From positions 62,001 through 126,000 of the forward strand of contig MPNN01000002.1 of assembly GCA_002239045.1 (NCBI GenBank): a stretch of 64,000 nucleotides of DNA. The letters are read 5' to 3'. Numbering within the stretch: position 1 is the stretch's first letter; the number at the start of each line of letters is the position of its first letter. The notes beneath the pieces are model-generated. The model did no database searches. It saw nothing but the letters and a program-made list of their open reading frames with translations, and had not been told where the DNA came from. The stretch is from SAR202 cluster bacterium bin127. GTDB taxonomy: Bacteria > Chloroflexota > Dehalococcoidia > Lucifugimonadales > Lucifugimonadaceae. Position numbers and translations under genes: made by a program. Positions 23,812 through 27,471 of this stretch are shown here, in pieces.

Positions 23812-24603
23812 ATGTATGCGAGTTTAACTTTGTTGCGCAACTGCCAGATAACGTGTCGCTCCTACCTGCCGATCGTAGCAGTGGTAGTGCTTGGTCTTGC
23901 GTTGGTCAGCTGTGGAGCCGAAGAAGGTGACGGAGTCGAAGTCGCGCAAGTCGCCGCGACAGCAACATCTGCACCAGAGCCAACAGCAACCACTGCACCT
24001 CCGCCGACCACGACGCAGGCTCCGACCGCAACGATCGCACCAACCGCGACCGAATCCCCGTATTGGGCCAAGAAGATCCTACCCGGCATCGCCATGGAGC
24101 AGTATCCTCCGGTTAACGACCGAACCGATTACGAACTTAAGAACACGCAAGAGTGGTTAAATGGGGAGCCGACCACGATTGCCGAGATCCGCGACAGCGG
24201 GAGAGTGGTGGTGGTCGATTTCTGGACCTATACCTGATACAACTGTAAGAACACGTGGCCGGCCTTGAGGGCATGGCATGAGAGCTACGCTAACGCCGGG
24301 CTCACCATCCTAGGAGTGCACACTCCCGAATTCGATTTCGAGAAGAGGATCAACAGACTTAGCGCCGCAGTCGAAGAGAACGACATCGGCTGGCTCGTGG
24401 TCCAGGACAACGAATACTCCACCTGGCGCTACTTCACCAACCGCTACTGGCCCGCCAAGTACATCTTCGACCCGGCTGGCAACCTCCGCTTCCGCCACTT
24501 CGGCGAAGGGAAGTATGAGGAGACGGAGCAAGTCATCCGACTGCTACTCGACGAAGCTGGCTTTGATGTTACGGGGATCGAACCTACTTACCCGCTCAAC
24601 TGA
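23812..24603 (+). CDS. Redoxin/TlpA-like lipoprotein with in-frame TGA at the first position of CxxC (putative selenoprotein)
   Basis: Two same-frame track ORFs (23812-24237, 24265-24603) join through TGA 24235-24237: VVVVDFWTYT-[TGA]-YNCKNTWPALRAWHESYANAGLTILGVHTPEFDFEKR; lipobox LVSC. Confidence 0.75.
24256..24278 (+). promoter_or_regulatory. Candidate SECIS-like hairpin downstream of the TGA
   Basis: tggccg-gcc-ttgag-ggc-atggca folds as two stacked short stems, 18 nt after the TGA; not a perfect consensus. Confidence 0.35.
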
Positions 24604-24846: not shown

Positions 24847-27471
24847 GTGAATGACACCGAGGGCTGTGAAAAAGTGACGGAACATAAGTACATAGATCAT
24901 TTGTTGAACAGAGCCGAAAGAGATAAACAGGATGGGGATTTTTCATACTTTTGGTCGCTTTTACTTGCAGGTGAGGCCTTGCACAAATTGGTAGTTCTCG
25001 GCATGGTCTCAGCCGTCGGGGATGATCGAGAAAGAAATCGGTATCGTTTGCAGTATCGATTGGTGCGAGCGCAAGGATTGGGTGAATGGAACGACGTACT
25101 GGGAGAAGTGCTAAACGGACCCCCGTCACAATACCTGCATCCAGATCTATCCGTTGACCGGGATCAACTCACGAAAAGAAATCCGGACGACGCTTGGCAA
25201 GTGGAGTGCGTCGAGTTGCTGCGGCAATGTCTGAGTCAACTTGACATCGAACAGCGCCAAACTGAAAGAGGCTCTCCTCTGATGTCTTGGTTCAGGTTGT
25301 TTGCCCTTTTGAGGAACAAAACCAGAGGACACGGCGCAACACGTACGACGGTCTCTGGTTTGGCTGGCAAATACTTAAACGATAGCATTCGCGTCTTGTA
25401 TGGAAATTTGAAACTGTTTCATCGACCCTGGGTTCACTTGCATCAAAACATTAACGGCAGGTATCGCGTTACTGGAATTGGGGGTGATGCGACGGTTTAC
25501 GACTATCTCAAAAACGAATCATCTCATAATCTCGCGGACGGAGTGTACATGTATGTTGACGTCCCAATGCGACTTGAGCTAGTTGTCGGTGAGCCAGATG
25601 GAAGAGACTTCTTCTTGCCGAATGGAAATTTCAATAAACATCATTACGAGCTTTTGTCATACGTAACAGACGACCGAATTTCAGGCGATTCGTCACAGTT
25701 TGCACAATCTCCCCATATGCGAATAAGTAAGACGCATGGAAATAAAGAACTACTGATAAGAGGTAACAGTCTAACGAATGCACCAAAATTTGCGGAAGAC
25801 TACGTCGCCAGGCCCGATATAGAATACCGTCTTTTGGATCTGCTGACCGATGATCGCCATCCGATCATCACTTTACAAGGAACAGGCGGTATCGGAAAAA
25901 CTTCAACGACTTTAAATATCATCGACAAAATCGTCGATCAAGAAAGGTTTGAATTGATTGCTTGGTTCAGCGCAAGAGACATCGATCTTGATTATGCTGG
26001 CGCCAGACCAGTGAAACCAAGTGTCGTGACTGAAAACGACATCGCTGACCGATACGCCCAACTGGTGTTATCACCGGACGCAATTAATGATCGGAAATTC
26101 GATCGTCGGACGTTTTTTGAGCAACAATTGGCATCTTACGACGGTGATGATAGCTGCCTGTTCATATTTGATAATTTCGAGACGGTCCGCAATCCAGTCG
26201 AGATGTTCGATTGGATCGAGCGGAACGTAAGACTGCCCAACAAAGTGTTGATTACGACTCGGTTGAGAGATTTCAAAGGCGATTACCCCATCGAAGTTTA
26301 TGGGATGACAGACGATCAGGCCGAGGATCTCATCAGAAAAACCGCTTCGCGTCTAGGTATTTGGGGTTTGCTCGACGAAAACAACGTCGCTGACCTTGCC
26401 AAGTCCTCGGGCGGTCATCCATACGTTATCAAAATCTTGTTGGGCGAAGTCGTGGATTCTAGGCGTTTCTCGTCGCCGCGCCATGTGATCGCCCGTAGCG
26501 ACGAGATATTGACGGCATTGTTCGAGCGCACGTTCAGAGCGTTGTCACCTTGCGGCCAACGGATTTTCATGACTTTGGCGGCCTGGAACTCAGCAGTGCC
26601 CCGCGTGGCACTCGAGGCTGTGTTGATCGGTTCGACTAATGACAATTACGAAGTTGACAAGGCAATCGAGTCGCTACTTAATTACTCATTCGCAGAGCAA
26701 CACGTCGCCGCCGAAGACGGTCAAACTTTTATCAGTCTACCATTGACTGCGCACGCGTTCGGTAAAAAGAAATTAGAGACTAGTATCTTGAAATCTGCGA
26801 TCGAAACTGATGTGCAAATCCTGCAAATGTTCAGTCCCAGTACGATTTCAGATATCAATCTCAATCTCGACAGGCGTCTTAGGAGCTTTATCAATAACGT
26901 ATCATCGCAGATAGACCGCGGTGAACCTTTTTCCCGTTTCGAACCGATTCTTCACATGGTGTGCAGGTCGTATAATCCCGGATGGTTGCAACTTGCCCGT
27001 TGGCGGATCGAGCGCGGCACCGCTGCCGATCTGGATCTGGCGATTTCAGATATTGAAACGTTCATTCAAAATGACGACAATGGTCCGTCTTCGGCAATAG
27101 CTTGGCGCATGTTGGCCGAAATATATGGAATTAAACACGATATACTCGGCGAGATTAATGCACTAGTTGAACGATCTATGTTGGATTCCGTGCCTTTTCA
27201 TGACATATCGAATACCGCGAATTTTTTGAACCACATATACCGCGAATTAGATATCGACCAAGGAAGGCTTGTGCTAGTCGAACGATTGCTTGAAGTTCTT
27301 GAAAAGCGAAGTGACGAAGCCAATGCAAACGACTTTTCTAGGATGGCTTGGCTCGCCATGCATTTGTTAAAAGAAGAACGGGCAAAAGAATTTGCAGAAC
27401 GCGGACTAAAACTGGATCCATCTAATGTGCATTGCATTAGAATTGCCAACCGACCGATCTTTTCTGTTTGA
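24847..27471 (+). CDS. STAND-type (NB-ARC-like) NTPase with N-terminal HEPN-like RNxxxxH motif
   Basis: LLRNKTRGHGA in a helical N-terminus; GTGGIGKTSTTLNII Walker A; DDSCLFIFDNFE Walker B; KVLITTRLRDF. Confidence 0.75.
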   Translation: MNDTEGCEKVTEHKYIDHLLNRAERDKQDGDFSYFWSLLLAGEALHKLVVLGMVSAVGDDRERNRYRLQYRLVRAQGLGEWNDVLGEVLNGPPSQYLHPDLSVDRDQLTKRNPDDAWQVECVELLRQCLSQLDIEQRQTERGSPLMSWFRLFALLRNKTRGHGATRTTVSGLAGKYLNDSIRVLYGNLKLFHRPWVHLHQNINGRYRVTGIGGDATVYDYLKNESSHNLADGVYMYVDVPMRLELVVGEPDGRDFFLPNGNFNKHHYELLSYVTDDRISGDSSQFAQSPHMRISKTHGNKELLIRGNSLTNAPKFAEDYVARPDIEYRLLDLLTDDRHPIITLQGTGGIGKTSTTLNIIDKIVDQERFELIAWFSARDIDLDYAGARPVKPSVVTENDIADRYAQLVLSPDAINDRKFDRRTFFEQQLASYDGDDSCLFIFDNFETVRNPVEMFDWIERNVRLPNKVLITTRLRDFKGDYPIEVYGMTDDQAEDLIRKTASRLGIWGLLDENNVADLAKSSGGHPYVIKILLGEVVDSRRFSSPRHVIARSDEILTALFERTFRALSPCGQRIFMTLAAWNSAVPRVALEAVLIGSTNDNYEVDKAIESLLNYSFAEQHVAAEDGQTFISLPLTAHAFGKKKLETSILKSAIETDVQILQMFSPSTISDINLNLDRRLRSFINNVSSQIDRGEPFSRFEPILHMVCRSYNPGWLQLARWRIERGTAADLDLAISDIETFIQNDDNGPSSAIAWRMLAEIYGIKHDILGEINALVERSMLDSVPFHDISNTANFLNHIYRELDIDQGRLVLVERLLEVLEKRSDEANANDFSRMAWLAMHLLKEERAKEFAERGLKLDPSNVHCIRIANRPIFSV

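Follow-up and report, generated by a model that had tools for sequence, protein, structure and literature searches.

The window, by which we mean the whole analysed stretch of 64,000 nucleotides from the SAR202 cluster bacterium bin127, contains on its forward strand a reading frame (positions 23812 to 24603) for which ORF analysis and direct reading of the sequence showed a single interruption, the TGA codon at 24235-24237. An earlier reading based on the sequence only had described two same-frame ORFs separated by nothing but this TGA, and that description was confirmed. With read-through of the inner TGA, the frame from the ATG at 23812 to the TGA at 24601-24603 encodes 263 residues. They begin with an N-terminal signal and its lipobox (LVS-C34); a linker rich in Pro, Thr and Ala leads to the redoxin domain, which has the active site FWTYT-U-YNCKNTWPAL. 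The positions of these features are listed in Table 1. The gene is flanked by a divergent DHDPS-family gene and a gene for an NB-ARC protein, neighbours that suggest no functional link with the redoxin. The latter, adjoining gene (24847-27471, forward strand) encodes 874 aa including an NB-ARC ATPase domain, and its product may be a defence or signalling protein of the STAND type.

Table 1. Features of the candidate selenoprotein gene (positions in the window)
Feature	Position	Strand	Basis
Putative selenoprotein gene, predicted lipoprotein with DipZ-type redoxin domain	23812..24603	+	Sec at 142; Pfam; alignment with orthologues from a common start
Cys34, probable lipidation site (lipobox LVS-C)	23911..23913	+	Sequence; lipobox consensus
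Redoxin (thioredoxin-fold) domain, residues ~106-250	24127..24561	+	Pfam; phmmer to DipZ 107-252; AlphaFold and Foldseek
In-frame TGA, predicted selenocysteine residue 142, first position of U-x-x-C	24235..24237	+	TGA in 7/7 genus members and G007; TGC in G009
TGT, predicted resolving Cys145 of the UxxC motif	24244..24246	+	Column invariant in 49 homologues
Candidate SECIS hairpin; apical loop UGA 24266-24268, bulged A 24273	24254..24280	+	RNA fold, bSECIS constraints, comparative pairs

The full read-through protein matched the Pfam AhpC-TSA family across the TGA (3.7e-10), and the segment downstream of the TGA still matched it when searched alone (6.5e-5). The frame stays open for 121 codons after the TGA; of the window's 2031 TGA codons, 3.7% are followed by a run of equal or greater length, and nine ORF pairs of comparable size are found there. 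Such a length is ordinary for a window of 56% GC, and we dropped it as evidence. The sequence-only reading had argued from both the length of the downstream frame (about 120 codons) and its family-typical sequence; the length proved unremarkable, and the family match stood. The gene pair accordingly rises above chance because of the homology on both sides of the TGA, not because of frame length.

An AlphaFold model computed with 49 homologues had a mean pLDDT of 93.2 and a pTM of 0.89, and its best solved match by Foldseek was the C-terminal redoxin domain of M. tuberculosis DipZ (PDB 2hyx, 5cyy; E 1.4e-18, 38% identity), followed by NHLRC2, SOQ1, ResA and DsbE-like proteins. A phmmer search likewise matched the DipZ redoxin domain (E 1.7e-35), with a DipZ Cys aligned to the window TGA. 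The window protein thus combines a thioredoxin fold closest to DipZ with the shared site FW-x-Y-x-[C/U]-x-N-C, in which DipZ has Cys and the window protein a predicted Sec at the first motif position. At its N terminus DipZ has a CcdA-like membrane part, and it carries further C-terminal sequence, whereas the window protein is a predicted lipoprotein with the redoxin domain alone; its 263 residues lack the full DipZ architecture with its fused CcdA-like membrane part and its C-terminal domain. A Cys paralogue in the same genome (C8, L184) has a C-terminal Thioredoxin_10 domain. The Trx-like domains of NHLRC2 and SOQ1 (PDB 6gc1, 7djj) belong to the same DipZ-like thioredoxin branch (phmmer 3e-19 and 4e-20), but these proteins have a CCINC site and an NHL-repeat beta-propeller, neither of which occurs in the window protein. 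The ResA/DsbE/TlpA thiol-disulfide oxidoreductases share its fold and predicted location; its identity to ResA is nevertheless below 20% in the structural alignment, and its scores lie far below the NCBIfam cut-offs.

If the TGA were a sequencing error, or a recent mutation from TGT or TGC in a single genome, the true or ancestral residue would be Cys, and Cys does occupy this column almost everywhere else in the family in the alignment of 49 homologues. However, TGA stands at exactly the same codon in all seven sampled genomes of the genus and in G007, which belongs to a different genus of the family, while the G009 orthologue has TGC (Cys) at this position. The TGA carriers differ by up to ~20-30% at the protein level within the genus, and G007 is 50% identical. 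Because these genomes were assembled separately and carry the same TGA, an error or mutation, which the sequence-only reading had named as the main alternative, is excluded in practice, and we consider it exceedingly improbable.

The same orthologues bear on a second alternative, namely a pseudogene or two separate proteins divided by a genuine stop. Gene callers would indeed yield two ORFs, and the piece after the TGA begins inside the fold; a thioredoxin fold split in this way, however, would lose its active site. Moreover, dN is far below dS on either side of the TGA (L064 versus L066, dN/dS of 0.082/0.99 before and 0.077/0.84 after it), and the codons on both sides are therefore under purifying selection. 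The end stops of the TGA-bearing orthologues vary among TGA, TAG and TAA while the inner codon is always TGA, which indicates that the inner TGA is not merely a preferred stop. We regard a pseudogene or a pair of proteins as very unlikely.

The genome to which the window belongs (G000; 3.02 Mb, 93.7% complete) encodes the selenocysteine machinery for which the sequence-only reading had proposed a search: selA (515 bits), selB (321 bits), selD (366 bits) and tRNA-Sec with anticodon TCA (67.8 bits). A second tRNA-Sec-like match (L005) was rejected, being a tRNA-Ser according to ARAGORN. The SelD gene of this genome (L019; G000:C11:7098-8027, minus strand) itself has a single in-frame TGA, at ASCAG-U-AGK, and UxxK is the site listed for Sec-containing SelD (PMC13188914). 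This SelD is thus a predicted selenoprotein in its own right, and its TGA at a listed Sec site points independently to the decoding of TGA as Sec by this organism.

These observations also bear on a third alternative, in which TGA would be reassigned throughout the genome or read by another suppressor (e.g. as Cys or Trp) without SelB. The SECIS evidence at the redoxin gene is weak by energy alone (see below), as such decoding would allow, but the Sec system is complete and SelD has its TGA at a known Sec site. In addition, TGA ends 57 of the 100 long ORFs in the window, mostly with another stop soon after, as expected from the earlier statement that genome-wide recoding is unlikely, and the tRNA-Cys that we examined (L008) has the anticodon GCA. 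We rejected genome-wide recoding on the tRNA anticodons and on the use of TGA as an ordinary stop, and decoding by reassignment or by another suppressor appears highly improbable. Since the codon is retained by relatives at this active-site position, and since the full decoding machinery is encoded in the genome, the inner TGA is almost certainly read as selenocysteine. The earlier proposal of a candidate selenoprotein is therefore supported by the conserved TGA, by selA, selB, selD and tRNA-Sec, and by Cys homologues; homologues with Cys and with a predicted Sec at the position, both of which had been suggested as a check, were found.

We surveyed 250 genomes of the order for the nucleotide pattern W-T-Y-x-TGA-x-N-C and found it in 126, whereas the reversed control pattern gave no match in the same survey. 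Within the family of the window, 43 out of 76 genomes contained the pattern and 38 of these 43 also contained selA (counted by hand). The five pattern-positive genomes without selA were G001, G073, G028, G027 and G075 (completeness 56-82%; G027 and G075 are absent from the listed pattern positives). The TGA pattern and the Sec system go together, except in genomes that are incomplete.

Among the genes that were fetched and translated, 23 putative Sec genes (including that of the window) were redoxins of the window type, spanning six lineages (g1, g2, f19/g40, f7/g18, f31 and the more distant f23); most remaining matches were a different, NHLRC2-like gene. In a maximum-likelihood tree of 105 rows, it takes five changes to explain the distribution of Sec, and as many are imposed by the branches with good support. 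The clade of the window comprises the seven genus members together with the pair G007 (Sec) and G009 (Cys, TGC), and the next branch consists of Cys forms. In genus g40 (L127, L130, L125, L126), individual genomes carry a Cys and a Sec DipZ-type redoxin gene a short distance apart, and the two copies are sister groups in the tree. As judged from these gene sequences, the distribution requires several Cys/Sec exchanges in the lipoprotein redoxin, each of which may have been a gain or a loss of a predicted Sec.

The RNA downstream of the window TGA can fold into a hairpin of -11.5 kcal/mol, which has a bulged A and whose UGA loop lies 28 nt past the Sec codon. The published bSECIS constraints are a loop of 3-9 nt whose first two positions include a G, a stem of 4-16 bp, a spacing of 16-37 nt from the UGA, and an MFE of <= -7.5 (PMC13188914). 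The window and all seven genus members fit this model; several further Sec genes of the redoxin family do not. The model also accepts ~60% of synonymous shuffles. As 29% of the Cys genes pass too, we rejected the model scan as too loose a discriminator. The folding energies of the redoxin genes did not differ significantly from those of synonymous shuffles (z-scores near zero), and silent-site constraint over codons +6 to +17 was borderline (p 0.057) and was not relied on. The strongest support comes from comparison: 23/23 Sec genes retain pairs 27-40 and 28-38 (numbering begins with the U of the UGA), and the two pairs occur together in 29/82 Cys genes, or in 23/50 if only Cys genes from the same class are counted. 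For the Pro codon in the hairpin, every one of the 23 Sec genes uses CCG or CCA, compared with 219 out of 464 for their other Pro codons; both the pair and the codon counts ignore relatedness and represent about six lineages. The comparison with Cys genes gives modest support for a SECIS-like hairpin, the evidence for which is moderate and falls short of decisive. In the SECIS check proposed earlier, the hairpin fits the published model and its pairs are retained, but its folding energy is no better than that of shuffles.

The NHLRC2-like gene encodes a Trx-like domain with an in-frame TGA at FWTYC-U-INC, followed by NHL repeats, and its C-U-I-N-C corresponds to the CCINC active site of NHLRC2 (PMC6107167). 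It is present in the genome of the window (L094:1601-3496, forward strand; G000:C11, TGA near 151800), with further examples in L095, L096, L099-L102 and L190-L198. By its W-T-Y-C-TGA signature, it occurs in most of the 126 pattern-positive genomes of the order, over 100, and also elsewhere in Chloroflexota. It has a clear, strong SECIS-type hairpin, CCGCAGUUGCGG, with variants UCCCAGUUGGGG and CCCGCGUUGCGGG in which stem changes preserve pairing, and every example tested met the bSECIS model. No NCBIfam model scored above its cut-off against the protein, our literature searches for NHL or NHLRC2 selenoproteins found nothing relevant, and the term 'NHL' was absent from the selenoprotein papers searched for it (including PMC9312934 and PMC13188914). 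This Trx-NHL gene with CUxxC is possibly a new selenoprotein family. A relative with HFWTYA-U-INC, in which Ala replaces the extra Cys, and with the CCGCAGUUGCGG hairpin (L199-L201, from G149, G116 and G167) is, from its sequence, another predicted Sec form of the NHLRC2-like type. A distant redoxin (L104, G058:C5) has FWTYG-U-INC and a strong hairpin, CCCACAGUUGGUGGG; its TGG-ACN-TAY-GGC-TGA signature recurs in seven genomes from other parts of the phylum (G620, G626, G665, G700, G735, G791 and G865), translation covering G058 only, and the FWTYG-U-INC redoxins are possibly a further Sec redoxin lineage. We consider it an evenly balanced question whether this one order of Chloroflexota has, in the DipZ/NHLRC2 redoxin branch, a hot spot where Cys and Sec were exchanged repeatedly, with the NHLRC2-like CUxxC sister as an uncatalogued selenoprotein family.

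Reviews of predicted selenoproteins list a 'Redoxin family protein' (UxxC), a 'Prx-like thiol:disulfide oxidoreductase' (PF00578, UxxC/UxxU) and a 'Thiol-disulfide isomerase-like protein' (UxxC), and describe the first by motif and accession only (representative records HEU0032618.1 and MBA3499694.1) (PMC9312934, PMC13188914). Like the window protein, the catalogued redoxin and Prx-like selenoproteins have a domain of redoxin/AhpC-TSA type with Sec first in UxxC. No Chloroflexota member of them was named in the portions of review text searched (PMC9312934, PMC13188914), and literature searches on selenoproteins in SAR202 found nothing relevant. Because the reviews list such proteins and no NCBIfam model matched the window protein above its cut-off, we place it among the known UxxC redoxin selenoproteins, to which, likened by domain and motif descriptions, it adds one more.

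Taken together, we consider it highly probable that the gene encodes a selenoprotein for which SelB and a hairpin deliver Sec, and which is an exported, lipid-anchored redoxin of the DipZ type. SelA and SelD would make Sec-tRNA(UCA), which SelB, together with the hairpin just downstream of the codon, would bring to the UGA at 24235. The product would then be exported and anchored by a lipid on Cys34, placing the redoxin domain outside the cytoplasmic membrane. We infer from this layout an extracytoplasmic, lipid-anchored thiol-disulfide oxidoreductase. In the presumed direction of the reaction, Sec142 would attack oxidised substrates such as disulfides, and the mixed selenenyl-sulfide would then be resolved by Cys145. 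The sequence-only reading had correctly placed the TGA at the first Cys position of the redoxin CxxC, but its label 'resolving' would apply to Cys145 and not to the attacking first residue. A redox partner is presumed as well; a search of the same genome found no strong one, the only CcdA-like protein (L189) scoring 22.6 bits against a Pfam cut-off of 27.1.

These results suggest that these Chloroflexota incorporate selenium into a disulfide enzyme that is probably exported and whose gene is cut in two by ordinary gene callers. The closely spaced Cys and Sec redoxins of g40 form a natural Cys/Sec pair, and such tandem copies, together with the repeated exchanges within one order, may provide a natural series on the benefit of Sec versus Cys in the same fold.
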